From Taurinivorans muris (lineage in GTDB: Bacteria; Desulfobacterota; Desulfovibrionia; Desulfovibrionales; Desulfovibrionaceae), in contig NZ_CP065938.1 of assembly GCF_025232395.1 (NCBI RefSeq), forward strand, positions 310,001-374,000: DNA of 64,000 bases, read 5' to 3'. Shown in pieces: positions 10,640 to 53,502 of this stretch; the stretch's first letter is position 1, and each line of letters begins with the position of its first letter. A program made the position numbers and the translations under genes. The notes beneath the pieces were generated by a model, which did not search any database, was not told the DNA's origin, and saw nothing but the letters and a program-made list of their open reading frames with translations.

Positions 10640-10845
10640 GCTCATTTTTCAAAATCCTCATAACCAATCACTCTGAATTATATAACCATGGCAAATCAAT
10701 CGCGGCAAATGATTTTATCCGCTTTTGCATGGAATAGGGCGTTGAAAATTTATTTTTGTTATGGTACGGTAAGATAACTGTTTGAGATATGCACGTTACG
10801 ATTAATAAACAAAATCTGTTGCGAAATTGTTTTTTGGGGGGCTTT

Positions 10846-12696
10846 ATGCCTGAAAATGACAGAATATTTCATTTGGAAACGTCAGCCTTGGAAAATCCGG
10901 AACAGGAAGGTCTGTTTCGGAAGCTCATTGATTTTGCCAAAGTTCCGGAACATTCTCCGGGGCTTATGCGTGCCATGTCGCAAGGCAGCGCATTTTGCAT
11001 AGGGGAGTATTTTTTCATTCATGACGATGACTGGCTTATGTCGATTGCCTATCCTTTGCGCGGCGCTTATTCTCATGAAGATTTTGAAGAAGCCTTTAAA
11101 CATGCCTGTAAAGAAGCCATGAAGCATTGCGGACAGCAAACACTCCGCTGTTTCGCCATAGGTCCTGAATTGCCCCGGCGTTTGCAGAACAATATTGTCG
11201 ACCATGACCGTTTCTATGTGCTTTCCGCCAACGCGCGGATTCCGGTTCGTTTGCGCAGTCCCGTACGGAAAGCTGAAGAAGTTTTGCGTATCGAGGAAAG
11301 CACGGTTTTTACTCCTGCCCATCGCCGTCTTTGGGCGGAATTCATGGGACGGGCTGACCGTGGGGAAACCGCTTCCCTTGCTCCGCATGTCCGCGAACTT
11401 TATGCCCGCACTCCGGAAGCTCTTTCTGAAACCGCCAAGAGCGGATATTTGCGGCTTCTCAATGCATGGGACAGCGAGGGGCATTTGGTTGCCTGCCTTA
11501 TGCTTGATTATGCCCCTAAAAATTTTGTTTCCTATATTCTCGGGGCGCATTCACGTACTCATTATGTGCCGCATGCCGTGGATTTGCTTTTTGCTTCCAT
11601 GATTGAACGGGCGAAAGCGGAAGGCAAACGCTTTATTCATCTTGGGCTTGGCGTGAATGACGGAATTTTGCGTTTTAAGAAAAAATGGGGGGCTGTGCCG
11701 TCTTTGCCTTATGTCATGGCGGAATGGCGGCAGGAAACAGAAAACGAAACGCAGAGCCTTGCCCAAGATTTCGCTCTTGCCTTGCTGCGCAGCAGCACCA
11801 TGACCAAAAGGCAGATTTTGGCAATGCGTCCTGAACAGCGGCCTTTTGCCATGATTTATGAAGTGGAAAAAAACGGTAAAATTTCATGGCTTTGCGGAAC
11901 AGCACATTTTTTCCGTTATTCTTTTGAAGATTCTTTCCGCAAGCTTTTCCGCAAGGTCGACCATGTTATTTTTGAGGGACCGCTTGATGACAATTTTATG
12001 GCGGAAGTGGATAAAAACGGTAAAAGTCTTGAACCGGATTTTATTCCTCTCATAAAACAATTGACAGAAACAGAAATACGGAAATTGGAACGTGTTGTGC
12101 GTGGTCCCGAGGGGCGAGTGGTTCGTTTTTTAGGCTTGGAAGCAAGCAAAAAAGCCGATGTGCGCGAAATTCTGTCAACCATGCGTCCCTGGTGTGCTTT
12201 TTTCAGCCTTTGGACCGCGTTTCTTGAACGTCTTGAGTGGCAATGTTCGGTTGATATGGAAGCTTGGCGTATTGCCCGCGATATGGGAAAAAATGTCATT
12301 GGTATGGAAAATTTGGAAGAACAGCTTGTTTCGCTCAATTCCGTACCGGTGGAGCGTGTGCTTGCGTATTTCCGAAATTGCCACGAGTGGAAAATATATT
12401 CACAGCGTAATTTAAAAGCATATCTGGCTGGCGATTTGGAGGGAATGATGGGCTCCAGCGCGGAATTTCCCACAAGAACGGGTGCGGTTATCAGTTTGCG
12501 TGATCAGCGTTTTCGTGAACGCATGCGGCCTTATTTGGAAGAGGGGCGTACCGCTGTTTTTGTCGGGGCTGCACATCTTTTGAATTTGCGTTGGATGCTT
12601 GCCGAAGACGGATATACGTTGCGCCGCTGCCTGCCAGGTATCTCCCATAAACTGAAAGCATTTTTGCACAATGAAAAGGAGGTTCGCTGGTGGTGA
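10846..12696 (+). CDS. GNAT-type acyltransferase fused to TraB/GumN domain
   Basis: I choose the ATG at 10846 (MPENDRIF), just after a GGGGGG site, giving 616 residues. Residues about 1-310 resemble FemAB/BioF2-like GNAT acyltransferases, with the telltale FIHLGLGVNDGILRFKKKWGA near the domain end. Residues about 340-610 resemble TraB/GumN proteins, with WLCGTAHFF at the start and AVFVGAAHLLNL near the end; TraB-family domains are thought to be metal-dependent peptidase-like. No signal peptide or membrane span is seen, so it is probably cytoplasmic. It is the first gene of a tight three-gene operon with a second GNAT and a radical SAM enzyme. The joint function is unknown; transfer of an acyl group to, and trimming of, a peptide is one guess. 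Confidence 0.75.
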   Translation: MPENDRIFHLETSALENPEQEGLFRKLIDFAKVPEHSPGLMRAMSQGSAFCIGEYFFIHDDDWLMSIAYPLRGAYSHEDFEEAFKHACKEAMKHCGQQTLRCFAIGPELPRRLQNNIVDHDRFYVLSANARIPVRLRSPVRKAEEVLRIEESTVFTPAHRRLWAEFMGRADRGETASLAPHVRELYARTPEALSETAKSGYLRLLNAWDSEGHLVACLMLDYAPKNFVSYILGAHSRTHYVPHAVDLLFASMIERAKAEGKRFIHLGLGVNDGILRFKKKWGAVPSLPYVMAEWRQETENETQSLAQDFALALLRSSTMTKRQILAMRPEQRPFAMIYEVEKNGKISWLCGTAHFFRYSFEDSFRKLFRKVDHVIFEGPLDDNFMAEVDKNGKSLEPDFIPLIKQLTETEIRKLERVVRGPEGRVVRFLGLEASKKADVREILSTMRPWCAFFSLWTAFLERLEWQCSVDMEAWRIARDMGKNVIGMENLEEQLVSLNSVPVERVLAYFRNCHEWKIYSQRNLKAYLAGDLEGMMGSSAEFPTRTGAVISLRDQRFRERMRPYLEEGRTAVFVGAAHLLNLRWMLAEDGYTLRRCLPGISHKLKAFLHNEKEVRWW

Positions 12697-13568
12697 CAAA
12701 AACGGATTCAAAACGTATGAATATGGGGCTTGCACAGGTCACTGCCGGCGCGATAACGCCGGATCAGCTGATTCCCTATGTGAAAGCCGTATCCCGTCTT
12801 GATTCACGCATGTTCGGAACCTGCGTAGGGCATTTTTGCGAGGGGCAGATTGTGCTGATCGGCTTTCCGATAGGGAAACCTCTTGACAGGGAAGCCCTTG
12901 ATGCGGCTGTTGACGAAGCTTTGCAGACAAAAGGTCTTAAACATATTACCGTGCTTTGTGCGGCAAAACCGAGCCGAACGCCTGAAAACGCCAACTTCAG
13001 CGAGGACGCGTATTGGTCGCTTCCTTTGCCGTTAGCACCCTATAAACAAAAACTGCGCAATATGCTTGCCAGAGCCAAGCGTGACATATTCATCGAAGAA
13101 AGCGGAGCGGAAGGATACGGGCAGGACCATGAAGCCATTGTTGAGGCGTTCTGTTCCGGACGCAGGCTTGAAGCAGGTATGATACATATTTTTCATCAGC
13201 TGAAAACATATCTTGCGGAAAGTCCCGGCGCACGCCTTTTTTCAGCACGGACCAAAGACGGCTCATTGGCAGCCTTTGCCATCGGCGATTATTCTTCTTT
13301 CAATACGGCTTTTTACATGTTTGCCTGCCGTCTGCCCTCGGCTCCTCCGGGAACTGCCGACGCCTTGCTTGAAGCTGTTGCGAAATGCGGTGAAGAACGC
13401 GGGCACAGCCGGCTTAATTTGGGGCTTGCCGTCAATGAGGGAATAGGTTTTTTCAAAAAGAAGTGGGGAGCCGAACATTTTCTGTCTTGTTATGAATACA
13501 GCTGGGATATACAGCCGGAGAAAAAAAGTTTGCTGGCACGTTTGTTTGGGGGTAGAAAGAAAATATGA
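12690..13568 (+). CDS. GNAT-type acyltransferase (paralogue of preceding N-terminal domain)
   Basis: A 292-residue protein starting at GTG 12690 (or 12693), preceded by a perfect AAGGAGG (12676-12682); it overlaps the stop of the preceding gene. The domain end RLNLGLAVNEGIGFFKKKWGAEHF mirrors that of the GNAT half of its neighbour, and both share an APxPxxLRxxxRxAxxxxxIE-like stretch in the middle, so the two arose by duplication. The family (FemAB-like/BioF2-like) transfers amino acids or acyl groups. Its stop overlaps the next gene by four bases (ATGA), a sign of translational coupling. Confidence 0.75.
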   Translation: MVTKTDSKRMNMGLAQVTAGAITPDQLIPYVKAVSRLDSRMFGTCVGHFCEGQIVLIGFPIGKPLDREALDAAVDEALQTKGLKHITVLCAAKPSRTPENANFSEDAYWSLPLPLAPYKQKLRNMLARAKRDIFIEESGAEGYGQDHEAIVEAFCSGRRLEAGMIHIFHQLKTYLAESPGARLFSARTKDGSLAAFAIGDYSSFNTAFYMFACRLPSAPPGTADALLEAVAKCGEERGHSRLNLGLAVNEGIGFFKKKWGAEHFLSCYEYSWDIQPEKKSLLARLFGGRKKI

Positions 13569-14632
13569 CTGGAAACGATCCATTGAAAAACCGCAGTTTC
13601 AAGGCTCCTGGCATTCTTGAAATGCTAAAACGGGATTTGCTCGGAAAACGGCGTCCCCTTGACTGCATACAGGTTGAAGTCACGTCCTTTTGCGCGGGAC
13701 GCTGCACCTATTGCCCCCATACGACCATGGCGGAAACTTGGAAATCAAGACATATGGAGGCGGATGTTTTTGCCGCTCTGTGGCAGCTTATGCGGGTGAG
13801 TGAACGCGTTCACCTGCAAGGATGGGGAGAGCCGCTTCTGCACCCGAGATTTTTTGATTTTGCGGCATTGGCGCGGAAGGCGGACTGTCAGGTTTCAAGC
13901 ACAAGCTGCGGCTTGATGATGAATGATGAGATAGCCTATAAGCTGGCTCATTCCGGAATTGACACCCTGGCGTTTTCCTTGGTGGGGACCGACACAGTTT
14001 CCAACGACAGCGGACGGGTAGGCGTACCGTTTGAAAAGGTCTGTTCGGCAGTCCGAATGGTCAAGGCTGCCGTCAAAGATATGGGATACGGTCCGTTAGA
14101 TGTCCACTTCGCGTATCTTTTGCTGGTTGACAGGGTGGAAGCTGTCAAAAGTCTTCCAAATCTCATGGAAGAACTGGATATCAGCACTGCGGTCATCAGT
14201 TCTTTGGATTACATAGCCGATAAGGAACAAGCCTGCCTTGCTTTTGCTCCCCATGAAAAACAGAAAATTGCCGAAGTCAGAAGCATTTTGCAGGATGTTG
14301 CCGATAAAGCGGCGCAAATGGAACGCAAGATTGTTTTTGCCCTACCCGGAGCAAAGGCTGCGGCGCATGCCGGCGGATGCAGAGAAAATGTGACCCGCAG
14401 TCTATATATTGATGCTGAAGGCATGGTATCTCCCTGCGTGTATTTAAATGTGCCTGATAATGCAGAAAATTCCAATCGTCGGATTTTCGGTTCTGTTTTG
14501 GAAACAAATATTCTTGAAATTTGGCAGAATGAAGATTTTTTGACGTTTCGCGAAGCGCTTGCAAAAAATACTCCGGATTCTGCGTGCCTGAATTGTCCAA
14601 AACGCTTTGAAATTATTGGAAAAGCCCGCTGA
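13565..14632 (+). CDS. Radical SAM/SPASM domain protein
   Basis: A 355-residue enzyme. The cluster cysteines are 43, 47 and 50 (CAGRCTYC), followed by LQGWGEPLLHPRF, equivalent to the GGEP motif. The C-terminus has SPASM-type cysteines: GGCRENVTRSLYIDAEGMVSPC and CLNCPKRF, which bind one or two extra 4Fe-4S clusters. SPASM enzymes often modify peptides or proteins. No small precursor peptide gene is visible in the operon. It is coupled by a 4-base overlap to the GNAT gene, making a GNAT-TraB / GNAT / radical SAM unit of unknown product. The end shows no clear terminator. Confidence 0.88.
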   Translation: MTGNDPLKNRSFKAPGILEMLKRDLLGKRRPLDCIQVEVTSFCAGRCTYCPHTTMAETWKSRHMEADVFAALWQLMRVSERVHLQGWGEPLLHPRFFDFAALARKADCQVSSTSCGLMMNDEIAYKLAHSGIDTLAFSLVGTDTVSNDSGRVGVPFEKVCSAVRMVKAAVKDMGYGPLDVHFAYLLLVDRVEAVKSLPNLMEELDISTAVISSLDYIADKEQACLAFAPHEKQKIAEVRSILQDVADKAAQMERKIVFALPGAKAAAHAGGCRENVTRSLYIDAEGMVSPCVYLNVPDNAENSNRRIFGSVLETNILEIWQNEDFLTFREALAKNTPDSACLNCPKRFEIIGKAR

Positions 14633-14861
14633 TTATTTTGTTATGAAAGAGCAAACGGCTTTATTTTTTAGCTTGCTCCGTGGGTTGGGAAGATTTCCCT
14701 GTTATTATCAGGCAAACTAAGCAATGAGGATAATGCGTCAGGTTAGTTATAAAAATGCTTCAAAATTTTTTTGATAACACAAACATTATTTAAGTTATGA
14801 TAGCATATTGCCCGCAATGTGTGTTTATCGTTACGGCAGTATGCGGATATTCCTGATACGG

Positions 14862-15584
14862 TCAATTATCAATAAGTTTGTACTGTTTCAGAAAGTAATG
14901 GATATCCGGTATGGGGTTGAACATCAGAACATCAATGAATGACAGCCCGTTTACGAAATCATTTTTAAACTGTTTATAGACTATATTATCGAACTGTGTG
15001 TTGACAAATTTAAGTTCCATGTTCGCATTCTTGAAATTACTTTGTTTGTAAAGTTCAATACCGCCGATAGGATTGATATAGGTTTGCGTATTTGTTTTTC
15101 TGCAAAGTTCGATAATTTTATTTTGTCCTTTTAAAGACATGTCTTTTTCGATTTCCGATGATTTGAGTATTGTTTTTTTTATGCTCAAGTAAGCAAGAAC
15201 AGCTTTCAGGCTGTGCATGATGAAGGCTGTCAGATCGGTTTCTTCCTGCATGATGATTTCTTCAAGCAAAGGATAAACGTATGGAAAAAGGGGGGCTCTT
15301 TTATATGCCGTTTGTAAGGTTTTAAGCAGTATTCCTTTATCTTTGTCTGAAAAATTGAGTTTTGTGTCAAGTATTAATTTATTTTGCGAGGATTTTTCCA
15401 ACGGTATCGTAAATAAATGTTTTTCGCCGTTTAACAAGATGTTGTTGCGGTTTATCCAACCTTTCATTATGAAATTCACATCGTCCAAAACAACAAAGGT
15501 ATCGACAGCGCATATCAGCTGAAAATAGCCGATATAGGGCATGAAATAGGGCTGCATGACTGCTGTTTTGGTATTATGTGACAT
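14862..15584 (-). CDS. WbqC-like family protein
   Basis: A 240-residue protein with the family opening AVMQPYFMPYIGYFQLI followed by VDTFVVLDDVNFIMKGWINRN. WbqC proteins occur in O-antigen and other surface glycan gene clusters and in some natural-product clusters; they are believed to act on activated sugars or amino groups, but the exact reaction is not established to my knowledge. No transmembrane segment is seen. It is the last gene of the long minus-strand island and sits 15 bases after the glycosyltransferase gene, which supports a surface-glycan role for the whole set. Confidence 0.85.
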   Translation of the reverse strand: MSHNTKTAVMQPYFMPYIGYFQLICAVDTFVVLDDVNFIMKGWINRNNILLNGEKHLFTIPLEKSSQNKLILDTKLNFSDKDKGILLKTLQTAYKRAPLFPYVYPLLEEIIMQEETDLTAFIMHSLKAVLAYLSIKKTILKSSEIEKDMSLKGQNKIIELCRKTNTQTYINPIGGIELYKQSNFKNANMELKFVNTQFDNIVYKQFKNDFVNGLSFIDVLMFNPIPDIHYFLKQYKLIDN

Positions 15585-15599
15585 TTTGCTTTTTTGGAT

Positions 15600-16577
15600 T
15601 TATTGATTCAATTGGTGCAATTTAAGAATTTTTTGCGCATTGTGTGAAGCTGCAAGGGCGAGGCAGGCAATAAGATCATCAGCCGTTGAATATTTTTTAT
15701 AGATATTCACAATATCCTCATCGTATTTTAGATTGTCCTCATGTTTATCTTTTAAATGAACATGGGCTGTTCCATGGCTTAACAATGCCAATGTATGGAT
15801 ATAATCGCGCAATTTTCGCACGTACTCATCTTTCAAGCCATGGCGTGCAAAAATGCCCGGCAGTTCTTTATACATTTGCCATGCGTCTTCCGCCCTGCCG
15901 GCAATTTTTTCAAGGTTCTTTTTGCCTTTAGGCGGATTATAACAATAAACGGGAATATTGCAAGAACAATAGCTTTCGGCAAAAAAGAGAAACCAGCATG
16001 TCAGATAAAAATCTTCAATTCTGAAAATATGCACAGTATGCTCAAGTTCGGCAATTTTTTTATAGACTTTTTTAGAATACAGCTTATTCCATACGGAATG
16101 GGCGACACAGCCTTTTTCAAGCCATACCGCAAAAATATCGTTTCCTGACAATTCATTTGCAAAAGGCATTGACTCCGGTCTTGGAACGTCAAATCCCAAC
16201 GCATTTTTCTGCATGGTGAAAAAATGTACGATATCGGTTTGCTTTTCCAAGGCGAATTGAAAAATTTTTTCGTAGGAATTTGGCAGATAGGCTTTGTCGT
16301 CAGAGTCCATGAAAGCGAGGTAATCACCTTGAGCTTTTTTCATGCCTGCCAGCCGAGCCTGCAAGGTATAACGCCGTTTAGGCTGGCGGATATAATGAAT
16401 GGTCAAGCCTTTTTCCCGCATTGCGTGGATGATGTGTTCCGGAGATTTTTCAGAACAATCGTCAACAATGATGATTTCCATTTGCCTGAGGCTTTGGGCA
16501 TGGAGCGAATCGAGCAAATCCTGTAAATTTTCAGGCTGATTATAATAGGGAACAACGATGGAAAGCAGTTTAGACAT
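15600..16577 (-). CDS. Glycosyltransferase family 2 protein
   Basis: I place the start at 16577 (MSKLLSIVVPYYNQ), 325 residues, because GT-A glycosyltransferases normally begin at this beta strand. The nucleotide-sugar region shows MEIIIVDDCSEKSPE and YLAFMDSDDKAYL, giving the DxD metal motif (DSDD). The second half is specific to this protein and may bind the acceptor. It overlaps the stop of the preceding glycosyltransferase gene by a few bases, so the two are translationally coupled. It is probably cytoplasmic and adds a sugar to a glycan or peptide. Confidence 0.88.
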   Translation of the reverse strand: MSKLLSIVVPYYNQPENLQDLLDSLHAQSLRQMEIIIVDDCSEKSPEHIIHAMREKGLTIHYIRQPKRRYTLQARLAGMKKAQGDYLAFMDSDDKAYLPNSYEKIFQFALEKQTDIVHFFTMQKNALGFDVPRPESMPFANELSGNDIFAVWLEKGCVAHSVWNKLYSKKVYKKIAELEHTVHIFRIEDFYLTCWFLFFAESYCSCNIPVYCYNPPKGKKNLEKIAGRAEDAWQMYKELPGIFARHGLKDEYVRKLRDYIHTLALLSHGTAHVHLKDKHEDNLKYDEDIVNIYKKYSTADDLIACLALAASHNAQKILKLHQLNQ

Positions 16578-17559
16578 GGGGCAGCTCTTTAATATGTTCA
16601 TAGTTTTTTATGATTTTGTTCGCGTTTTCTACGTTTGCCAAAAGAAGGGCCTGCATAAGGGTTTCCTTGTCGATGAACGGTTCCAATTCCTCAAGAACGC
16701 CGTAAACGGCGGACGGATTTTTTTGTATTTCCTGCGCGAGCAGTATGGAAAGCTGACCGGTGTTCACCGTAATTCTTTTTTTCATATAGGCAAGAAATTT
16801 GTTTTTGATATTTTCAGGGCATTTTCTTTCTTCCATAAAGGGGAGCATGGCATTGGTGATTGTGTATAAATCCAAAATCCGGGCGGCGTATTTTTCTTTC
16901 GGCCAAAAATTGTTGGGGGTATAGTGGTAAATTTCTATCGTGCTTCCAAGGTAGGAATTTGCGAAAAGCATGGCGGCGCTTACCAAGCATTTGTCGTCAA
17001 AGCGTTTGATGGGCAGATTTTTAACTTTTTCCGCGATTTTTTTGAGAAAATCCGTTTTATACAGTTTTCCCCAAAGGTTGGCTGCAATATAATCTCTGTC
17101 GAAATAATGCTCAAAAATTTCAAGTCCGTAAAGCTCCTTGCCGAAAGGGGCGGTATTGGGCGCGTCTTGGAAAAGCTCTTTCCCGTATTTATCGCTTCCC
17201 CGCACTCTGAAATGCCCTATGTCAAATTGTTTTGAGGAAACTTCCCTCAAGGCTTTTTCAAGGTTTTGGGTGCCGATAACATCATCATCACCGTCCGCAA
17301 ACATGCAGTAATCGCCTGCTGCAAATTCGAGCCCGTGCAAACGGCTGTGCATGGCATACAGCTTTGTTTCGTTATTGATAAGTCTTATGGAGTGCACAGC
17401 GCTTTTTCTTTTTAAAACTTCTTCGGCTCCCGTATCCGCGGACATGTCGTTCACAACGATAATTTCCAAGGGAATTGACTGCGCGGTGAGGCTGTCGAGC
17501 AATTTGCCGATGCTGTCCGCCTGATTATAAAGTGGAATGATAACAGAAAGTTTGTGCAT
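16570..17559 (-). CDS. Glycosyltransferase family 2 protein
   Basis: A 329-residue GT-A enzyme: LSVIIPLYNQADSIGKLLDSL at the start, LEIIVVNDMSADTG, then the metal motif MFADGDDDV. It is related to the next gene, and the pair may have arisen by duplication. The GGGGGAA ribosome site is strong, and 11 bases separate it from the third radical SAM gene. The donor sugar cannot be deduced. Confidence 0.88.
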   Translation of the reverse strand: MHKLSVIIPLYNQADSIGKLLDSLTAQSIPLEIIVVNDMSADTGAEEVLKRKSAVHSIRLINNETKLYAMHSRLHGLEFAAGDYCMFADGDDDVIGTQNLEKALREVSSKQFDIGHFRVRGSDKYGKELFQDAPNTAPFGKELYGLEIFEHYFDRDYIAANLWGKLYKTDFLKKIAEKVKNLPIKRFDDKCLVSAAMLFANSYLGSTIEIYHYTPNNFWPKEKYAARILDLYTITNAMLPFMEERKCPENIKNKFLAYMKKRITVNTGQLSILLAQEIQKNPSAVYGVLEELEPFIDKETLMQALLLANVENANKIIKNYEHIKELPHV

Positions 17560-17570
17560 AGTTCCCCCGA

Positions 17571-18551
17571 TTAATCACCAACAATATAATCCGGTTTTTG
17601 GACATGGTAGGGATCCCATTTGGCTAATGTGACGTAAGGCGGGCATAAACATTTATCTTTTGTGCAGGTGAAAGGTTTTGTTAAAAGCGGATATTCCGTA
17701 ATAGGCTGGGAATTGAGGTTGAAGTTTTCCGTTGCCTTGATATTGACGCAGGGGCTCACGCTTCCGTCAGGCAAAACTCTTATGGCATTTTGTCCCGCAG
17801 AACATTTAAGTCCTTGATAGCTCACCAATTCATGATTGTTTCTAAAATCTTCAACATGGAATTTGATTTGTTTTTCTTGATTGTTTTCATCAAGATAATA
17901 GTTCGTATAAACCTGACTCATTTCGGCTGTTTTTTCAAACAAGTATTCAACTTCATTTTTTGTGTATGCGGGGTCGAGTTTGTTATCGACAAGAATACCG
18001 CGTATCCAAACTCTCTTGTAGCCGATATTATTAAGTTTTTGGGTTATCCTTTCCACTTCTTTCTGTTCTCCGTGTTTCATAAGGAGATTGACGGTACAAA
18101 TTTCCGCGTTTTGAAAGCGTTTTAATGTGTCAAAATAGGTATCCATATCCGCTTGTTCGTTATGAAAAGAAATGCAAACGGTGGTGCTGCAATTATCATA
18201 TATATGCGGTGACATCCTGTCGAGAAGAACACCATTCGTCATGACAAAGCACGATGCTTTGTTTTTATATCCCTCATGTTCGCGTAAGTAAGAAAAGAAT
18301 TGTTCAAGGTGGGGATATAATAATGCTTCGCCTCCCGCAAGGCTGAAGCTGTAATGGCTTTTTTTCAATTTCGGCAGGTATTCCATAAGGTTTTCAAGCG
18401 CCTTGGGGCTTAATGCCATGGGATAATTTTTTTTATAGGTTTCATTGATGCAATAGCTGCATTTGAAATTGCAAAAAAAACTGAACCAGCCCGAAATAAT
18501 CATTTTGTTCGTTTTCCAGGCAGCTTCGTTTCCGGTTTTGATGATTTTCAT
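17571..18551 (-). CDS. Radical SAM/SPASM protein, tandem paralogue A
   Basis: A 326-residue enzyme, one of three adjacent paralogues. The cluster cysteines are 27, 31 and 34 (CNFKCSYC), with the SAM motif AGGEALLYPH about 40 residues later. The C-terminus has SPASM-like cysteines: LKCSAGQNAIRVLPDGSVSPC and then CTKDKCLCPPY, ending with a conserved KWDP box. All three copies share the opening pattern IIKxG..xWKxNxMII. The AAGGAATA ribosome site is good. Genes on either side encode glycosyltransferases and FkbM methyltransferases, so the substrate is likely a glycan, lipid-linked sugar or peptide being modified. Confidence 0.88.
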   Translation of the reverse strand: MKIIKTGNEAAWKTNKMIISGWFSFFCNFKCSYCINETYKKNYPMALSPKALENLMEYLPKLKKSHYSFSLAGGEALLYPHLEQFFSYLREHEGYKNKASCFVMTNGVLLDRMSPHIYDNCSTTVCISFHNEQADMDTYFDTLKRFQNAEICTVNLLMKHGEQKEVERITQKLNNIGYKRVWIRGILVDNKLDPAYTKNEVEYLFEKTAEMSQVYTNYYLDENNQEKQIKFHVEDFRNNHELVSYQGLKCSAGQNAIRVLPDGSVSPCVNIKATENFNLNSQPITEYPLLTKPFTCTKDKCLCPPYVTLAKWDPYHVQKPDYIVGD

Positions 18552-18574
18552 AAGTTATTCCTTAAAAGAGCGGG

Positions 18575-19558
18575 TTATTCCGGTTCGCCCTTAAAATAGG
18601 CGGGAGGGGTGGCAAAATTTGGGTTCCATTTGGGAAGTTCCGTATAAGGAGGGCAGGCGCAGCGTTTGCTTGGGCAAATAACCGCTTTATTGATATAAGG
18701 ATATTCCAATATAGTCTGTTCGTTTAAATTAAAATTTGGGTCGCCTTTGTGACCGTAGCAAAGCGTCACTTTGCCGTCCGCAAGAACACGTATGGAATTT
18801 GCTCCGGCGGCACAGTGCATTCCTGAAAAATTCGCAAAACGGGAGTCAAGAATGAAATCGTCGCGTTTCAGTGTTTTTCGGATTGTTTCGTTATTTTCCA
18901 GCCATTCGTAGTCAATGGCGAAATCGTCTTGATAGGGGTTGGTTTCAAAGAATTTCAATTCTTCTTCCGAATAGTCCGGATGAGGTTTTTGGTTGATAAC
19001 GATACTTTGAACAATGAACTTTTCATATCCGAACGATTTAAGGGTGTTGATGGTTGAAAGGGCTGTGTCCAGCTTTCCGGGGTCGAGCATGAATTTGACC
19101 CTGCAATTTTGAGGATAGGGGAAATTTTGCAGTCTTTTCACGTATTCTTCAATGGGTAATTGTTCCGTATGCATGGAAATAAGCAAAGAAAGGGAGTATT
19201 TTTCTGCCGTTTTTATGAATGGCTCGAATTTATTGATGAAATAGCCGTTTGTTCCGATTGTGCATTCTGTTTCCGATGTGAACTTTTTGTTGATGATGTC
19301 AAAAAACTTGTCCCAATGCGGGTACAGGGCGGGTTCTCCGCCTGCAATGTAAAAGCTGTATTTGTCTTTTTTCAGTTCCGGCAAGTAAAGCATTAAATTA
19401 TCGAGCGCGGTTAAAGATAATTGCGTTTTATATTTGTCGTGCTGGTTTTTATTAATGCAGTAGCTGCAGTTGAAATTGCAATTAAAGTTGAAATTGCAGG
19501 TGATGACCATATTGTTTTTTGTGTTATTTTCTTTGGAATGAACTTGTGTAAGCTGCAT
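18575..19558 (-). CDS. Radical SAM/SPASM protein, tandem paralogue B
   Basis: A 327-residue paralogue of its two neighbours. The cluster cysteines are 27, 31 and 34 (CNFNCSYC), the GGE motif is AGGEPALYPH, and the C-terminal cysteines lie in MHCAAGANSIRVLADGKVTLC and CPSKRCACPPY, followed by KWNP. Compared with A and C the IIK opening is altered (MQLTQVHSKENN). It has the best ribosome site of the three (AAGGAGG). The spacing to A is 23 bases. Presumably each copy acts at a different position or on a different substrate. Confidence 0.88.
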   Translation of the reverse strand: MQLTQVHSKENNTKNNMVITCNFNFNCNFNCSYCINKNQHDKYKTQLSLTALDNLMLYLPELKKDKYSFYIAGGEPALYPHWDKFFDIINKKFTSETECTIGTNGYFINKFEPFIKTAEKYSLSLLISMHTEQLPIEEYVKRLQNFPYPQNCRVKFMLDPGKLDTALSTINTLKSFGYEKFIVQSIVINQKPHPDYSEEELKFFETNPYQDDFAIDYEWLENNETIRKTLKRDDFILDSRFANFSGMHCAAGANSIRVLADGKVTLCYGHKGDPNFNLNEQTILEYPYINKAVICPSKRCACPPYTELPKWNPNFATPPAYFKGEPE

Positions 19559-19570
19559 TTTTTCCTCCTT

Positions 19571-20569
19571 TTACCGGGAACTGATTTGTTCTTTTTTTAG
19601 GTAGCTCGGCCCTTCCGCATATTCGGGATTCCACTTGGGAATAGCAGTAAAGCCATGACAGCCGCAGTATGTGGATGTGCATGTAATCGGTTGATATATA
19701 TATATATATTCCAAAAGAGAATGCATGTTGAGATTAAAATCGGGAGCTCTTTTATGAAAATGGCAGGGAGCTATTGAACCGTCGGCAAAAACCCTCATGG
19801 ACGAATGGCCTGCAAGGCATTGCAGCCCGGAATAGTTGACAAGTTCAGGATTTAAAACAAATTCTTCTTTGGTGAAATCTTTTTTGACTGTTTGACCGTT
19901 ATTGAGGTATTCATTAAAAAGTGCCGTGTTGCTTGGATAAGGGTTGTGTGCAAAAAATAATTTTTCTTCGTCGGTATAATCAGGGTGAACGTTTGAATTG
20001 ATAATGATTGGCTGAATAATAAAATCCGCATATCCGAAACTTTTCGCCTTTTCTATAATATCATTGGCTTGTGCCAGCGTGCCCGGTTTCAACATGAGTT
20101 TTATCCTGCACATGTTTGGAAATTTAAATTGCGAAAACTTTTTTAGATAGGTTTCCGCATCCATTTGTTCCAAATGCATTGAAATAGCAAGATGAACGTT
20201 TAACTCAGGGTATTCTTTGAGATAATCTTCAAGTCTGTGCAGTAATGAACCGTTTGTTGCCATAAATACAGTATAATTTTCCGGTGAAAAGAATTCATTA
20301 ATATATTTGAGCATGTCAGGAAAATATTCGTAAAGGGAAGGTTCTCCTCCCGCAATGGCAAAGCTGTAAAAATCTTTTTTTAAAAGCGGCAGATTGGAAA
20401 ATAAATTATGAAGCGCTTTTGGGGATAACTGTTCATTAAAATTTTTGCGAGTGTTTTGATTAAAACAGTAAGAGCATTTAAAATTACAGTTCATATTGAA
20501 ATTGCAGGCAATAACCATATTGTTTTTTTTCCAGTTTTGGTCAGAACCTGCTTTAATAATTGTATTCAT
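19571..20569 (-). CDS. Radical SAM/SPASM protein, tandem paralogue C
   Basis: A 332-residue paralogue. The cluster cysteines are 28, 32 and 35 (CNFKCSYC), with AGGEPSLYEY as GGE motif. The SPASM-like cysteines are in LQCLAGHSSMRVFADGSIAPC and CTSTYCGCHGF; here the CPPY of copies A and B has become CHGF. A run of alternating TA near 19696-19710 encodes the YIYIYQ stretch, a possible slippage site. The ribosome site is weak (AAAGAAAA). Twelve bases separate it from B. Confidence 0.87.
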   Translation of the reverse strand: MNTIIKAGSDQNWKKNNMVIACNFNMNCNFKCSYCFNQNTRKNFNEQLSPKALHNLFSNLPLLKKDFYSFAIAGGEPSLYEYFPDMLKYINEFFSPENYTVFMATNGSLLHRLEDYLKEYPELNVHLAISMHLEQMDAETYLKKFSQFKFPNMCRIKLMLKPGTLAQANDIIEKAKSFGYADFIIQPIIINSNVHPDYTDEEKLFFAHNPYPSNTALFNEYLNNGQTVKKDFTKEEFVLNPELVNYSGLQCLAGHSSMRVFADGSIAPCHFHKRAPDFNLNMHSLLEYIYIYQPITCTSTYCGCHGFTAIPKWNPEYAEGPSYLKKEQISSR

Positions 20570-20588
20570 GGCATTTTCTTTTGGTTAT

Positions 20589-20744
20589 TTATTTTTCTCG
20601 CTCAGGCAGTGCTGCGGTCTTGCTGCAGCCGTATCGTACCAATTGGCACAGGAACATTAGAAAGCTGGAATTGCAGTTCAATGCAAAAAAAATGTGCATG
20701 AAATCTTTGTTCCATAATGTTTCGTTGCCGGCTTTTATAATCAT
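20589..20744 (-). pseudogene. N-terminal stump of a fourth radical SAM paralogue (51 codons)
   Basis: The frame starts at 20744 after a strong GGGGG site and reads MIIKAGNETLWNKDFMHIFF, clearly parallel to the openings of copies A and C (MKIIKTGNEAAWKTNKMIIS and MNTIIKAGSDQNWKKNNMVI). The cysteine motif is only partly present (CNSSFLMFLC) and the rest of the enzyme is absent. It is best read as a truncated paralogue left by recombination among the tandem copies. Because it is an intact short frame with a good start next to radical SAM genes, a role as a small peptide is not excluded, but similarity to the enzyme argues against it. Confidence 0.6.
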
Positions 20745-20754
20745 TGTTTTCCCC

Positions 20755-21894
20755 CTATCTTGCTGTCGCGTAAATAACCGTTTCCGCATACCAGGGGCGG
20801 TGATGTCCTGTATAGAATTTGTAGCCCAAGTCAAGTTTACGCAAAAATTCAGGTATGGTGATGAAATCTATGCAATTATGATAAATGCAAATGGCTAAAT
20901 TTGGCTTATCCCTTTGCAGTATTTGTTTCGCACCCATAAGCGCGTTCAGCTCCGCACCCTCAATATCCATTTTTATAAAATCAACTTTATCATATTTTGC
21001 GTTTAAAAAATAATCATCAATGGACGTAACGGAACATTCAAAATCTTCTTCTTTGATTTTTTGTTTGACGACTTTCACATAATTATCCGTGTTGATATAC
21101 AGTGTTCCCGTAAAATCATACAATCCTTTGGGGATAAGCCGAATATTTTTGCAGTCTTTGCACGTTGCTGCTGCTTTTGTATAATAGACAGGGTCCGGTT
21201 CAAAGGCGATGATATCGCATTTGTTCCGTAATTTTTTACAGAAATCGATTGTTGTTATTCCATCGGCAGAGCCGCCTTCGCAAACAAGATCATTTTCTTT
21301 GGCTGAAGCCAGCGGGTGCCAATACTGGTCATAGGGAACTATGGGAATATAGCTTGGATTGCATAAATGACGTGATTTCCAAAGAGACAGATAGGTGTAT
21401 CTGCTCAGATTGTCTTCAAGGACATTGTAATTGTCAATGGCTGTTTGCAGCATGTTGTTGATAAATATGAAAGAATTGCGGCGATAAAACTTGGATGCGC
21501 TTTTTGCCTCAATGGTGTATTCCTGTATGTTGAGCTTTGACAATGCGATGGATAAATTTCTATACGCCGTGCAGGCGGGTCTTAAGTCAGGAAGAAAGAA
21601 ACAATGGATATTGTCTTCTTTTGTGAACGTCGTAAAAGGAACGATTTTTATTTTCTTATTTTTTATTTCTTCTTTTAAGCCCAATACATGGAATGCGCGG
21701 ATACAATGCTCTTGTCCTTTATAAAATTCAAGCGCTGCATTTAATTCTTCATAAGCACAGAAAATAATCGTATCCGGTTTCAGTTCAAATGTCATTTGTC
21801 TGAGAAGCGGAAGGGAACACAGCAGGTTGGCTGCTTCCCGCTCCGAATTGATTTTTTCGGGTAATGCGTTTAATGTTGTTTCAAAGTTTGACAT
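20755..21894 (-). CDS. FkbM family methyltransferase
   Basis: A 379-residue protein. The FkbM methyltransferase domain occupies about residues 195-375: VCEGGSADGITTIDF and IIAFEPDPVYYTKAA form the SAM site, and DFIKMDIEGAELNALMGA is the family hallmark. The N-terminal half is a conserved region of unknown role shared with the 662-residue neighbour, including NVLEDNLSRYTYLSLWKSR. FkbM enzymes O-methylate sugars or polyketides. The AGGGAAAA ribosome site is good, and eight bases separate it from the neighbour. Confidence 0.9.
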   Translation of the reverse strand: MSNFETTLNALPEKINSEREAANLLCSLPLLRQMTFELKPDTIIFCAYEELNAALEFYKGQEHCIRAFHVLGLKEEIKNKKIKIVPFTTFTKEDNIHCFFLPDLRPACTAYRNLSIALSKLNIQEYTIEAKSASKFYRRNSFIFINNMLQTAIDNYNVLEDNLSRYTYLSLWKSRHLCNPSYIPIVPYDQYWHPLASAKENDLVCEGGSADGITTIDFCKKLRNKCDIIAFEPDPVYYTKAAATCKDCKNIRLIPKGLYDFTGTLYINTDNYVKVVKQKIKEEDFECSVTSIDDYFLNAKYDKVDFIKMDIEGAELNALMGAKQILQRDKPNLAICIYHNCIDFITIPEFLRKLDLGYKFYTGHHRPWYAETVIYATAR

Positions 21895-21902
21895 TTTTTT
21901 CC

Positions 21903-23891
21903 CTATTTGGCAATGGCGTATAAAATTGTTTCATTGTACCATGGTCTGTGATGAGCAACATAGAATTGATAATCTTTATAAAACGGAGCGAGCAGTTTGG
22001 GAATATTGATAAGGTCGAGCCCGTTTCTTCTATGGTAAATGGAAAGAAGAAGTTTCGGCTTTTGCTTTGAAATGGTTTTTAATGCGCCTTCCAAAACAGG
22101 AATTTCCGCTCCTTCAACGTCTAATTTGATACAATCAAGCTTTTTATCGGCAAAAAAATCGTCAATGCATATTGCATCGCAAAGATTTTCCGTGTCGGCA
22201 GCATTGATATATGCGCTGCTGAGGCTGAGCGTATTGGTGTTTAAACCGATTTGGCAGGTTTTTGACCAAAGGGCTTTGTTGATAAGAAGCACATTGGAAA
22301 AATTCATCAATCTTTTTTGACAATTTCGGAAGCTTTCTTTCACGGGCTCAAAAGCGTAGACTAAGCCGTCTTTTTGCAGCTGGCTGAAAAGCTCGCTTGT
22401 TTCGCCGTTGTCTATTCCCCCCTCACACATGATATCCGTTGAAAAAAACGCTACTTGAGGGTGAATGTATTGTTCAAAATTCGCCATGGGAATAAAGCCA
22501 GGACGGCCGAGTTTTCTTGCTTTGCAGGCTGCCAGGAATGTGTATTTGCTTGGCATGTCTTCAAGAACATTATAAAAAGCGATGAGAGCGTCATTATCCT
22601 CTTCTGAAAAATCGGTTTTTAATTTATTGCAGTACATAAGCTCCATGGAATACGCTTCAATGCTGTATTTTGAAACGCCTTTATAGTGCAGCGCCATAGC
22701 CAGCGATGCAAACTTTGTCATGCTCGGAGCTTTGCCTTGCTTAAAAAACACATGGATATTCATGGAATTATCAATTTGATTTAAATCATAAATTGCTAAG
22801 TCCGGATATTTATTGTAGGATAAATCTTTTACATACAAGGTCGGGACTTTTCCCAATTTCTCCGTATACCAGTTTATGGTGAAATCAAGTTCGGCATCAT
22901 GGCAAACAACGACGGTGCCGGAAATATTTGTGAGTTCTTTTTCCTCACGCAGTTCCGGAATAAGGGAATATGCCTTTTCAAGTTCTTCCAAAGAAGAAAT
23001 CCGGGCTGGAAGCGCTTTTTGCAAAAGTGTTTCTGCCGCAGGGGAATTGGTGTATCTTGTTTTGAGCAGGCTTAGAGGACTTTGCTTTGAAATAAAACGG
23101 ATTTTGGCGCTTAACGTGTTGGAAAAGTGATTTTGGTATAAGAATTCAATGGTATTGATATAATCTTTTTTTACGAAAATCATGTTGTATTGGTGGCGGA
23201 AAGCGAAATCGCGGGCAATGGGAAGAAAGTCGTTTTCAAGCATGAAATCGCACAGTTCTTTTTCATTCCATTGTTGTTTAAATTTGGTTTGTGATTCAAC
23301 TTCAACAAAAACGGAATACACATGGGGAAGAAGGTTTTTCGCCCCTTCCAAAATAAGCGAAGTCGCGCCCTCCGCGTCAATCCATAAAGAAAAGCCCTGA
23401 TTATGGGAAAGTTCATTTTTAAATAAGGTATCGAGCGTATTGCACTTTACCGTGATATCCGTTGTGCTGTCGTTTGTTTTACGTTCCAAAATGGAGTGGC
23501 GTTTGCTGTCTTTCGCTTCCTGTTTCGCTTGAATGGTGTTGCTGATATGGAATGTGACATCTCCGTCATAATTGCTGACTGCAAGGTGTTCATAATGAAT
23601 GGCGGAATTTTGAATTGCCGGCGTGTTGATATATTTTTCATAAACATAGGGATTGGCTTCATAGGCGAACACATTGAACTGCGGAAATTTTTTCTTTACG
23701 GAAAGGGAAAAACCTGCCTCATGGGCGCCGATTTCAACAATACTTTGTACAGGCAGCAAGTGTTGGATATTTATAAAGAAATCTGTTATTCTTTGCGTGG
23801 ACCATTGTCTGCCCTGCATGGAAGACAAGTCAAAAAGCATTGCTTGCTGCTGCATTTGCAGTAATAAGATATCTGAATAAGCGATCGTCAT
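21903..23891 (-). CDS. Protein with two FkbM methyltransferase domains
   Basis: A 662-residue protein, first gene of the minus-strand island. The first FkbM domain (about 40-225) has SIVEIGAHEAGFSLSV, VFAYEANPYVYEKY and SLWIDAEGATSLILEGAKN. The second (about 480-655) has MCEGGIDNGETSELF, VYAFEPVKESFRNC and CIKLDVEGAEIPVLEGA. The middle part plus the second domain align with the separate 379-residue FkbM protein, for example NVLEDMPSKYTFLAACKAR, so one gene arose from the other by duplication and fusion or splitting. The AAAGGAC ribosome site is good. It may methylate two positions of one glycan. Confidence 0.88.
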   Translation of the reverse strand: MTIAYSDILLLQMQQQAMLFDLSSMQGRQWSTQRITDFFINIQHLLPVQSIVEIGAHEAGFSLSVKKKFPQFNVFAYEANPYVYEKYINTPAIQNSAIHYEHLAVSNYDGDVTFHISNTIQAKQEAKDSKRHSILERKTNDSTTDITVKCNTLDTLFKNELSHNQGFSLWIDAEGATSLILEGAKNLLPHVYSVFVEVESQTKFKQQWNEKELCDFMLENDFLPIARDFAFRHQYNMIFVKKDYINTIEFLYQNHFSNTLSAKIRFISKQSPLSLLKTRYTNSPAAETLLQKALPARISSLEELEKAYSLIPELREEKELTNISGTVVVCHDAELDFTINWYTEKLGKVPTLYVKDLSYNKYPDLAIYDLNQIDNSMNIHVFFKQGKAPSMTKFASLAMALHYKGVSKYSIEAYSMELMYCNKLKTDFSEEDNDALIAFYNVLEDMPSKYTFLAACKARKLGRPGFIPMANFEQYIHPQVAFFSTDIMCEGGIDNGETSELFSQLQKDGLVYAFEPVKESFRNCQKRLMNFSNVLLINKALWSKTCQIGLNTNTLSLSSAYINAADTENLCDAICIDDFFADKKLDCIKLDVEGAEIPVLEGALKTISKQKPKLLLSIYHRRNGLDLINIPKLLAPFYKDYQFYVAHHRPWYNETILYAIAK

Positions 23892-24158
23892 AATTTTGTC
23901 CTTTTTGGTATTCTCTTTTTTTTATTCAATTTTTATGCCATTTGATTAAATAGGGGGATATAAAAATTTGAATACATTAATTTTTTTGTTACTGGTTCTT
24001 TTTATTTTATTTTTTTTAAAATAAAAGTCAATTACAATTTGCATTGACTTAATTCCGTATCTGTTTCAACATGATTTTCATAAAAAATGACGGCGGGCTA
24101 ATTGAGCCGGTTTTAAACATGCGCAGTGCTGTTGGTGCAAGCGCGTTACAGGGTATCT

Positions 24159-24863
24159 ATGCATAATTTTATGAAAACGCATTATCAGGATTTTGAAGAG
24201 AAAAAGGTAAGAGAAATTCTTTCTGCATATGCGGGGAAAAGAGTTCTTGATTACGGCTGCGGACAGGGCAAGTATTTGAAAATAATGAAAGAACTTGGCG
24301 TTGAGGCTGTCGGTATAGATGTCAACCCTGAACAGATCGCCGATTTGCGGTTTCTGGGTTTTGAAGTGTATGCGGACAGCGCGGAGTTAAAGAAACAGCG
24401 TTTTGACTGCATTTTGCTTTCGCACGTGATTGAACATTTCTCCGGTGATGAACTGGTTGAATTGTTTGACTCCATATTGCCTTATTTGAAAAAAGACGGA
24501 AAAATCATCATTGTCACGCCTGTTCTCGGGGAGCGGTTTTATTATGATTTCACCCATGTTCGCCCTTATTATCCGCAAAGCGTGCGAATGCTTTTTGGCG
24601 GTATCACAACGGCTATGTCGACAAAATCCCGATATTCCGCTGAATTGGACGATGTTTTCTTTTTCAGGGACAGTTTTAAATTAAGGCTTTTTCAAGCTTT
24701 TTATCCTGCAAGCAGCGCTTTGCCTGTTTTTAAAAAAATTCTTTCGGCTGTCAATTCTTGCTTTTCCTTTATACATTATTACAGCGGCGGAAAAATCGGC
24801 GGAACGGCAAGCTGGCTTGGCATTTATGCCGTAAAAGGAATGGTTGATGATGAAAAAAATTAA
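24159..24863 (+). CDS. Class I SAM-dependent methyltransferase
   Basis: The most likely start is the ATG at 24159 (MHNFMKTHYQDF), preceded by AGGGT, giving 234 residues; an upstream ATG at 24126 is also possible. The SAM-binding motif I is VLDYGCGQGKYL, with GIDVNPEQIADL as motif II and DCILLSHVIEHFSGDELVELFDSILPYLKKDGKIIIVTP as motifs III and IV, as in UbiE/Methyltransf_11-type enzymes. It is divergent from the FkbM island across 230 AT-rich bases and overlaps the following ATP-grasp gene by 17 bases, which signals coupled translation. It probably belongs functionally to the same island. Confidence 0.88.
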   Translation: MHNFMKTHYQDFEEKKVREILSAYAGKRVLDYGCGQGKYLKIMKELGVEAVGIDVNPEQIADLRFLGFEVYADSAELKKQRFDCILLSHVIEHFSGDELVELFDSILPYLKKDGKIIIVTPVLGERFYYDFTHVRPYYPQSVRMLFGGITTAMSTKSRYSAELDDVFFFRDSFKLRLFQAFYPASSALPVFKKILSAVNSCFSFIHYYSGGKIGGTASWLGIYAVKGMVDDEKN

Positions 24864-26124
24864 TGTCGGCGTTTTTCCCTGCGAAGCGGAAAATGCGTAT
24901 GAATTATACCGTTCTTTGCAGTATGCCGTCCGTTTTAATGTGATTGGCTTGGCAAGCAAAGTGGAGCATTGCAAGTTCGAATACCGTGAAATTTATGACG
25001 GTCTGCCCTATGTTTTCGAGGATGATTTTTTGCCTTCTTTCATTGACGCCCTGATTGCCAAAAAAATAGAATACATTTTCCCCACCCATGATTCTGTTGC
25101 CGAATATCTGAAAGAAGTTGAAGATAAGCTTCCCGCAAAAGTCTTGTGTTCACCTTTGCATACCGCAGTGCTGTGCAGAGATAAGGAAAAATTGTATCGT
25201 TTTTTGCGGAATGAAGATTTTTGTCCCGAAGTCTACGCTTTGGAAAATCTTGTTTTTCCCTCTTTCGCAAAACCGAAAATCGGACAAGGCGGTAATTTTT
25301 GTCAATTTTTGCAAAGCGAAGAGGATATGAAGCTTTTGACGCGTTCCTTGGACGATATGCTTTTTTGCGAATATTTACCCGGTATCGAGCTTACGGTTGA
25401 TTGTTTCACGGACAGAAAAGGACGTTTGCTTTATGCGGGGGCAAGAACCCGTGACGTCATAAAACAAGGGATCGCGTACAGTTCACGCTCGTATCCCCTT
25501 TCCGATGAAATCATGAGTATTCTGTTAAAACTTAACTCGTCGCTTGTTTTGCGCGGCTTGTGGTTTTGTCAGATAAAAAAAGATGCCTGCGGGGCATGGA
25601 AATTGCTGGAAGTTTCAACCCGTATCGCAACGACCATGAATTTGACAAGGCATAAGGGAATAAATCTGCCGCTTTTGGCTTGTTATGATGCCTTGGGCTA
25701 TGATTTGGATATATTGGACAATCCTTTTCTTGTCCGCATTTCCCGGTCGTTGCAGACAAAGTATGAGCTTTCCTTTGATTATCGGACGGTTTACCTTGAT
25801 TTGGACGATACGCTCATCGTGAACGAAGCCGTGAACATAAAAATGATCGCTTTTGTGTATCAGTGCGTCAACAAAGGTAAAACAGTTGTTTTGCTTACGA
25901 AGCATGAAGGCGATGTCGAGGAATATTTAAAAAAATATAAAATCGATACGGCGCTTTTTGCAAAAATTATCCATATTCCTGATGATGAAAAAAAATCTCT
26001 TTATTATGAAGATGAAAAGGGAATACTGATTGACAATCTTTATGTTGAAAGAAAAGAAGCGTTGAAGTGCGGTTTGGCGGTTTTTGATGTTGACGCCATA
26101 GACGCCTTGCTGGAAACATTTTAG
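24847..26124 (+). CDS. ATP-grasp/HAD-like fusion protein
   Basis: I choose ATG 24847, seven bases after AAGGA; 425 residues. The N-terminal part (about 1-300) looks like an ATP-grasp carboxylate-amine ligase of the carbamoyl-phosphate-synthase type: a pre-ATP-grasp domain with YIFPTHDSVAEYL, then FAKPKIGQGG as the ATP loop and FCEYLPGIELTVDCFTDRKGRL; LLEVSTRIATTMNL is the metal-binding end. The C-terminal part (about 310-425) begins YLDLDDTLIVNE, the DxDDT motif of HAD hydrolases, and has ILIDNLYVERKEA as the last HAD motif. Such fusions join an ATP-driven ligation to a phosphatase-like step. It is coupled to the methyltransferase gene and followed by a stem-loop. Confidence 0.82.
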   Translation: MMKKINVGVFPCEAENAYELYRSLQYAVRFNVIGLASKVEHCKFEYREIYDGLPYVFEDDFLPSFIDALIAKKIEYIFPTHDSVAEYLKEVEDKLPAKVLCSPLHTAVLCRDKEKLYRFLRNEDFCPEVYALENLVFPSFAKPKIGQGGNFCQFLQSEEDMKLLTRSLDDMLFCEYLPGIELTVDCFTDRKGRLLYAGARTRDVIKQGIAYSSRSYPLSDEIMSILLKLNSSLVLRGLWFCQIKKDACGAWKLLEVSTRIATTMNLTRHKGINLPLLACYDALGYDLDILDNPFLVRISRSLQTKYELSFDYRTVYLDLDDTLIVNEAVNIKMIAFVYQCVNKGKTVVLLTKHEGDVEEYLKKYKIDTALFAKIIHIPDDEKKSLYYEDEKGILIDNLYVERKEALKCGLAVFDVDAIDALLETF

Positions 26125-26165
26125 TTTTTGTGTTTTTGTTTGGACGGGTAACGGAAAAAAGAAAA

Positions 26166-26190
26166 AAGCCTCTGAATGAGGCTTGTTGTA
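26166..26190 (+). terminator. Stem-loop terminator after ATP-grasp/HAD gene
   Basis: AAGCCTC (26166-26172) and GAGGCTT (26178-26184) form a 7-bp stem with a 5-base loop. The tail (GTTGTAAC) has few Ts, so termination may be partial. Confidence 0.5.
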
Positions 26191-26561
26191 ACTATTGTAT
26201 GGTTTGTGCTTTTTTATTCAATAATATTTTCACCGTCCTTTTTTATTGTATTGGGCAAAAGCATTTGCATTGTGCGATGAAAGCATAAATGATTTTGCCA
26301 AGTTAGGATTAATAAGGGGATTCGACATTGTTTGGATGTGCGATCCCTTGCCGATATAATTTTTCTGCAAATATTATTCCAATACTTTTTTCTATGTTAT
26401 TTCAGCTTGTTGTGCCTGTTGCAGCGTTAGCTGCAGTGCCTGATAGATGGCTTTGCGTGTGTATTTTGGCAACAAAATTTGCAGCAAGGTGTAACTTTTT
26501 TTATCAGAAATGATTTGATTTTTGTGTTTGCATGAATTAGGTTTTTATCAAGGATATTGTT
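26191..26561. other. Gene-free stretch before the TauE/SafE gene
   Basis: A short TTG-start frame at 26328-26513 has no recognisable features or ribosome site and I do not believe it. The region includes a short imperfect repeat, GCAGCGTTAGCTGCAG (26419-26434), that can fold on itself. Otherwise I see nothing; presumably it holds the promoter of the next gene. Confidence 0.4.
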
Positions 26562-48820: not shown

Positions 48821-48829
48821 AGTTATTTT

Positions 48830-49501: not shown

Positions 49502-49512
49502 ACTGTTTCCCC

Positions 49513-50736: not shown

Positions 50737-50748
50737 AATAAAATCCTT

Positions 50749-53414: not shown

Positions 53415-53502
53415 GTTTGCTCCGTTTCTTGTCATTTTATCGGTATCATTATAACGGATATCGGATATAAAGACAAATACAAATCCTGTTTGTCAAAACA
53501 AG

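Follow-up and report, generated by a model that had tools for sequence, protein, structure and literature searches.

We analysed a 64,000-nt stretch of the Taurinivorans muris chromosome (contig NZ_CP065938.1, positions 310,001 to 374,000), which we call the window and which comes from a genome assembled as a single contig of 2.17 Mb. T. muris is a spiral mouse-gut bacterium and has polar flagella (PMC10507020). From position 23891 down to 14862, the minus strand of the window carries an operon of eight intact genes and one gene remnant, established from the list of open reading frames (ORFs) and Pfam. It combines FkbM methyltransferases, a tandem array of three radical S-adenosylmethionine (rSAM) enzymes, two family 2 glycosyltransferases (GT2) and a WbqC-family protein. 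From 5' to 3' the operon reads:

21903–23891, minus strand: double FkbM methyltransferase, 662 aa, operon gene 1 (PF05050 95.6 bits in two stretches; TIGR01444 122.6 bits)
20755–21894, minus strand: second FkbM methyltransferase, 379 aa (PF05050 58.1 bits; TIGR01444 66 bits)
20589–20733, minus strand: rSAM remnant, a short ORF with an N-terminal match to rSAM
19571–20569, minus strand: twitch-like rSAM copy 3, 332 aa (PF04055 49.4 bits)
18575–19558, minus strand: twitch-like rSAM copy 2, 327 aa (PF04055 42.8 bits)
17571–18551, minus strand: twitch-like rSAM copy 1, 326 aa (PF04055 49.5 bits)
16570–17559, minus strand: glycosyltransferase GT2a, 329 aa (PF00535 65.2 bits)
15600–16601, minus strand: glycosyltransferase GT2b, 333 aa (PF00535 99.9 bits)
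14862–15584, minus strand: WbqC-family protein, 240 aa, final operon gene (PF08889 222.6 bits)

A sequence-only reading of this DNA had described the same gene set in the same order on one strand; every ORF that it named is present, and Pfam confirms the families. The cut-offs are 29.5 bits for PF04055, 21.5 for PF13186, 22.7 for PF05050, 37.7 for TIGR01444 and 21.3 for PF08889, so both FkbM proteins and the WbqC protein are members of their families. Intergenic distances in operon order are 8, 185 (with the remnant inside), 12, 23, 11, −32 and 15 nt. By blastp, the second FkbM protein shares 34% identity with the second half of the double FkbM, of which it is a paralogue. No membrane segments were predicted in the operon proteins, GT2a and GT2b included, and there is no Wzx, Wzy, ATP-binding cassette (ABC) exporter or initiating transferase among the operon ORFs, so this is not a self-contained O-antigen or capsule locus. 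Rfam gave no match within 13500–26500, and promoter and terminator counts for the region were close to chance level.

The CX3CX2C motif is invariant in the three rSAM copies and all of them score above the PF04055 cut-off, which places them in the radical SAM superfamily. Pairwise identity among them is 35–45%, and they share the series CX3CX2C, GGE, C-x-A-G ... C ... CX4CXC ... K-W-(D/N)-P. The sequence-only reading had pointed out the CX3CX2C motif and the C-terminal cysteine set with its K-W-(D/N)-P box, and both are present in all three. It had also described an unusual opening (IIKxG..xWKxN), which is plain in copies 1 and 3 but not clear in copy 2 (MQLTQVHSKENNTKNN). Its label of SPASM was overstated: the C-terminal region has only a CX12GX4C half-motif and a CX4CXC group ahead of K-W-(D/N)-P, and the Pfam SPASM family (PF13186) matches copy 1 at 17.5 bits, below its cut-off, and copies 2 and 3 not at all. 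Because this threshold is not reached, "twitch-like" is the better description, and judging from their motifs the rSAMs are probably half-SPASM, twitch-like enzymes with one predicted auxiliary [4Fe-4S] cluster.

We modelled copy 3 with AlphaFold2 (mean pLDDT 88.2, pTM 0.86), and a structure search found that the model resembles SPASM and twitch rSAMs, peptide-acting and sugar-acting alike. Foldseek matched the twitch-type rSAM dehydrogenases BtrN (E 1.4e-5) and SpeY (E 1.9e-4), as well as BlsE (E 1.9e-7), which like DesII is a sugar-acting rSAM; VIA-align gave Z of 12.9–13.2 for BtrN, BlsE and DesII. BtrN was also found by a sequence-profile search (E 1.6e-5). These structure matches have 11–17% identity, and the peptide-acting anSME, SuiB and ChlB score equally well or better. 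Structure prediction and profiling with hidden Markov models, which had been proposed for these proteins, therefore confirmed radical SAM enzymes, did not discriminate the substrate and did not reach SPASM.

Between most of the copies, synonymous divergence (dS) is about 1.1–2.8 and the ratio of nonsynonymous to synonymous divergence (dN/dS) is 0.17–0.30. Since dS is mostly above 1 and dN/dS is in this range, the copies are old and under purifying selection. The sequence-only reading had proposed that the array was amplified locally. The local part stands, because all T. muris copies form one clade (95/99) in the tree; the recency that it implied is rejected by the dS values. The two copies of another species, G070 (see below), form a clade of their own (98/98), so local amplification has happened at least twice.

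The contig scan with the window returned only one near-identical contig, from the metagenome-assembled genome (MAG) UBA8003, which is assigned to T. muris in the Desulfovibrionaceae with >98% average nucleotide identity to the type strain (PMC10507020). Our strain comparison is therefore between the window and this one MAG, which is 80% complete and in which the rSAM array spans a contig break; its contigs C72 and C116 bear both operon flanks, and we computed identity per 100 nt. Between the right flank and the end of the first double-FkbM half it is 91–100%, mostly 98–100%, with that half itself at 96–100%. Across the other half and the second FkbM, it comes in blocks of 60 to 98%. It is 97–100% from rSAM copy 1 through GT2a, GT2b, WbqC and the left flank. 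The array itself has at least five copies in UBA8003 (counting one cut at contig ends) versus three in the window. Copy 1 has 99.8% nucleotide identity to a UBA8003 copy and copy 3 has 94.2% to another, copy 2 has no close counterpart among the UBA8003 contigs, and the other UBA8003 copies are about 61–76% identical to anything in the window. Strain-level variation is confined to the rSAM array and the FkbM region.

The same remnant at 20589–20733 occurs in the window and in UBA8003. About 25 residues correspond to the rSAM N-terminus, as expected of the rSAM stump that the sequence-only reading saw here; the match of its last 30 or so residues to the rSAM C-terminus was not significant (shuffle fraction 0.08). 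In both strains its frame has stayed open despite indels, which could be chance or could reflect a retained mini-protein.

To see where else these genes occur together, we searched 288 Desulfovibrionaceae genomes, and 297 genomes class-wide for the rSAMs. The class-wide search gave matches in 11 of the 297. The double FkbM is found in four species (T. muris, or G000, and the species that we number G070, G095 and G309) and in the conspecific MAG, and three further genomes match only half of it. In all four species it is adjoined by an rSAM, GT2a and GT2b. The sequence-only reading had named a lack of co-occurrence elsewhere as the outcome that would count against it; the core was found in three other species, so its idea survives. 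The double-FkbM layout is common to G070, G095 and G309; the G309 MAG has one split rSAM and a further rSAM after GT2b. The T. muris GT2a and GT2b are 34% and 42% identical to their counterparts in the G070 and G095 cassettes. We found the complete set, WbqC among it, in the two T. muris genomes only. Neither the double FkbM nor rSAM copy 3 has a match in the congeners G001–G004, so by sequence matching the operon is specific to T. muris among the congeners compared, whether by gain or by loss elsewhere.

Upstream of the core in G070, G095 and G309 lie genes for a ketoacyl-ACP synthase III (KAS III), an acyl carrier protein (ACP) with a W-D-S motif, a short-chain dehydrogenase/reductase (SDR) and a hexapeptide acyltransferase, and at the downstream end is an SQD1-like gene. 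G070 additionally has DegT and a GT2-domain protein of 754 aa. With KAS III/VioS, ACP, a VioR-type reductase and a VioB-type acyltransferase together, these three are viosamine-type islands. G015 has a looser cassette that contains a B12-dependent rSAM and one half of the double FkbM. The B12-binding rSAMs inserted in the G095 and G015 cassettes (L044:9001-10779 and L077:9629-11431) are 34% identical to each other and suggest radical C-methylation in the same pathway. A second locus of G095 packs three KAS III-like genes into about 4 kb (L101:4-2454, G095:C39:2827-3987); one of them is 69% identical to the island KAS III, and this may be a second glycan island.

The viosamine island of Pseudomonas, which modifies flagellin, is ordered vioA-vioM-vioT-vioS-vioB-vioR-acp in P. 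syringae pv. tabaci and P. aeruginosa PAK (PMC3927599). G070, G095, G309 and in part G015 share its KAS III, ACP, 3-oxoacyl-reductase-type SDR and hexapeptide acyltransferase; some of these relatives also have DegT and a glycosyltransferase, and methyltransferase and glycosyltransferase genes adjoin. Enterobacterial flagellin islands often contain FkbM and DegT genes (PMC4875605). The described Pseudomonas islands lack the rSAM array, the double FkbM and the SQD1-like gene, whereas T. muris lacks the KAS III/ACP/SDR/acyltransferase module and shows no flagellin proximity. The closest precedent that we found for the array is a 36-kb plasmid of Brachyspira hyodysenteriae on which glycosyltransferases and a sugar epimerase adjoin a run of consecutive rSAM genes; three of these rSAM genes vary between strains, and a role in surface glycosylation was proposed (PMC4267127). 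Compared by description, it is alike in having tandem strain-variable rSAMs beside glycosyltransferases in a spiral gut bacterium, and unlike in that FkbM and WbqC are not listed there; among the plasmid matches listed in our rSAM plasmid searches there was no Brachyspira record. Given this precedent, a claim that the operon is of a kind not seen before is weaker, while the pattern itself gains credibility. Our literature search found no paper combining radical SAM and FkbM with a glycosyltransferase or WbqC. We regard the operon as a variant of known glycosylation islands.

T. muris also has an SQD1-like gene of its own (394 aa, G000:C1:836577-837758), outside the window operon and 61% identical to that of G070. 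The SQD1-like proteins of T. muris and the three related cassettes align over their full length to Arabidopsis SQD1, a UDP-sulfoquinovose synthase, with E of about 1e-98 to 1e-99. The T. muris protein has T, Y and K at the positions aligned with the known catalytic residues of SQD1. The function is putative; the G070 and G095 proteins score 329 and 313 bits, below the NCBIfam equivalog cut-off of 575. Close homologues (E <1e-150) occur in 12 of the 288 family genomes, including all four double-FkbM species, and in none of the congeners G001–G004; there was no match in UBA8003, which may reflect its 80% completeness. The association with the double FkbM has a hypergeometric value of about 2e-6, which is not a true probability because three of the four are operon-linked and the genomes are related. 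In other family members the SQD1-like genes sit among glycosyltransferase and FkbM genes. The T. muris gene lies after fliF.

In two other families of the order (G048 and G038), rSAM homologues are fused to glycosyltransferases as giant proteins in glycan clusters with WbqC. Two such glycosyltransferase-like and rSAM proteins are 1097 aa (L021:7381-10674) and 1917 aa (L022:6103-11856) in length.

We lean towards the view that the operon is a cytoplasmic glycan-tailoring cassette that modifies a short glycan carried by a surface protein, flagellin being one possibility, with turnover of the array diversifying the glycan. GT2a and GT2b would use nucleotide sugars to assemble a short chain, which the FkbM enzymes would O-methylate. 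Each twitch-like rSAM would abstract hydrogen at a particular sugar position, leading to dehydrogenation, epimerisation or deoxygenation, and WbqC would attach one more substituent. The product would be a short chain, heavily modified and attached to a surface protein, and not a polymer handled by Wzx/Wzy or an ABC exporter; we favour a protein-linked, cytoplasmic glycan because the operon has no polymerase, flippase, exporter or membrane segments. Flagellin would be the best single guess for the acceptor. Divergent copies in the rSAM array and in the second half of the double FkbM would be gained, lost and exchanged, and strains would make different glycans as a result. The sequence-only reading had suggested biosynthesis of a surface glycan or of a glycosylated small molecule. 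The first is supported, as the core lies in glycan islands of three other species and rSAM–glycosyltransferase fusions lie near WbqC in two other families. The second is not: there is no scaffold, release or export gene in or beside the operon.

Several points weigh against a protein-linked, strain-diversified glycan. We infer the substrate, the reactions and the acceptor, and also that the variation alters glycan structure, with the enzyme roles taken from family knowledge. The structure matches of copy 3 mix peptide- and sugar-acting enzymes, so they do not fix the rSAM substrate. The strain comparison depends on a single incomplete MAG. We found no viosamine-type KAS III in T. muris, only the housekeeping FabH (29% identity), so T. 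muris does not have the viosamine-type island. As for flagellin, the operon is at 0.325–0.334 Mb and the flagellins are at 0.995 and 1.545–1.549 Mb; it is not a flagellin-adjacent island, and we found no glycosylation cluster beside the flagellin loci, which are >600 kb from the operon. This distance weakens the flagellin guess, although some accepted flagellin glycosylation islands are likewise unlinked to flagellin (PMC7874193). Congeners that lack the operon also possess flagellins. The position of the SQD1-like gene after fliF is a weak argument, because other genes follow fliF in G004 and G003.

It is possible, though we think it unlikely, that the operon instead tailors a lipid-linked glycan (lipopolysaccharide core, O-antigen or another) that is chiefly assembled by genes elsewhere, with no linkage to protein. 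WbqC and FkbM are common in O-antigen loci, the G048 and G038 rSAM homologues sit (by eye) with genes resembling UDP-galactopyranose mutase, NeuB and PIG-L, and the setting of the SQD1-like genes in other family members also fits. However, the absence from the operon of Wzx, Wzy, an ABC exporter and an initiating transferase, and of membrane segments from the GT2s, speaks against a lipid-linked product, as does the acylated-amino-sugar module of the cassette relatives, which is known from flagellin glycosylation. We consider it improbable that the operon is the decaying leftover of a viosamine-type island with no present function. That would explain why T. muris lacks the island KAS III, has its SQD1-like gene elsewhere and carries an rSAM remnant, and why the congeners lack the operon, but the remaining genes are full length and keep their active-site cysteines, dN/dS is 0.17–0.30, and the GT2 genes, WbqC and rSAM copy 1 are 97–100% conserved between strains.

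Maturation of a ribosomal peptide by the rSAMs, with the remnant ORF as precursor and the other genes decorating the product, is very improbable. SPASM and twitch rSAMs often act on peptides, the short ORF is retained in both strains, and the best NCBIfam match of copy 1 is a PapB-type maturase, but at 50 bits this is far under the cut-off of 340. The first 25 residues of the short ORF copy the rSAM N-terminus, the operon has no exporter or peptidase, and G070 leaves no space for a precursor, its double FkbM gene lying right against the rSAM genes. We therefore rejected an rSAM-dependent peptide cluster.

A more far-reaching extension of a tailoring cassette, which we offer tentatively and hold to be rather doubtful, is that the tandem rSAMs are an interchangeable set of regiospecific sugar-modifying enzymes that give strain-specific surface glycans, possibly with sulfonated sugars made from sulfite. 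Strain diversity of bacterial surface glycans is usually attributed to changes in glycosyltransferases, polymerases and simple transferases. The two strains compared here differ most sharply in the tandem rSAMs and the adjoining FkbM halves, inside a conserved operon. If the rSAMs do act on glycans, radical chemistry would diversify the surface of a sulfidogenic gut bacterium. Since few genes are involved, the idea is testable with one cultured strain and mass spectrometry.

The operon is flanked on both sides by genes on the plus strand:

10789–14632, plus strand: left flank and left boundary of the island, with a GNAT/TraB fusion, an LPG-synthase-C-like protein and an rSAM/SPASM protein
24126–26124, plus strand: right flank, divergent from the operon, with a methyltransferase of 245 aa (PF13489 67.3 bits) and an ATP-grasp protein of 426 aa (PF15632 57.7 bits)

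The left flank has 77–79% nucleotide identity in the congeners G001 and G002, which have unrelated genes in place of the operon. Its first gene (10789–12696) is an unusual fusion of a GNAT-type acetyltransferase and a TraB/PrgY/gumN domain, conserved in two congeners. The right flank is 91–100% identical in UBA8003, and its methyltransferase and ATP-grasp protein are possible partners in the pathway.

Relatives of the rSAMs are also found on Vibrio-group plasmids. A conserved plasmid operon in Vibrio alginolyticus (L051:6221-14342) and Photobacterium damselae (L004:8084-16353) has a lysine acyltransferase, a SelO-family protein, a GT2, a hypothetical protein of about 95 aa, an rSAM, HlyD and a C39-type ABC transporter, and looks like a system for export of a modified small protein. 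Our phage-record search gave no match. Viral contigs gave 225 candidate stretches, of which we retained 80 (L111–L190). A simple motif count gives at least two rSAM-like ORFs in 47 of these 80 loci, and is rough because the motif is common to many rSAMs; a local seed search of the 80 loci found no glycosyltransferase, FkbM or WbqC relatives. The viral contigs often have two to four clustered rSAM-like genes (for example L141:5953-10809 and L119:5917-7931), many with a C-terminal cysteine pattern resembling that of the window rSAMs.

Elsewhere in the window, two overlapping ORFs at 9382–10160 resemble one NapH-like membrane 4Fe-4S protein split by a frameshift. The ORFs at 45443–53435 resemble a type I restriction-modification system whose subunit genes are separated by one for an AAA ATPase and a small partner gene.

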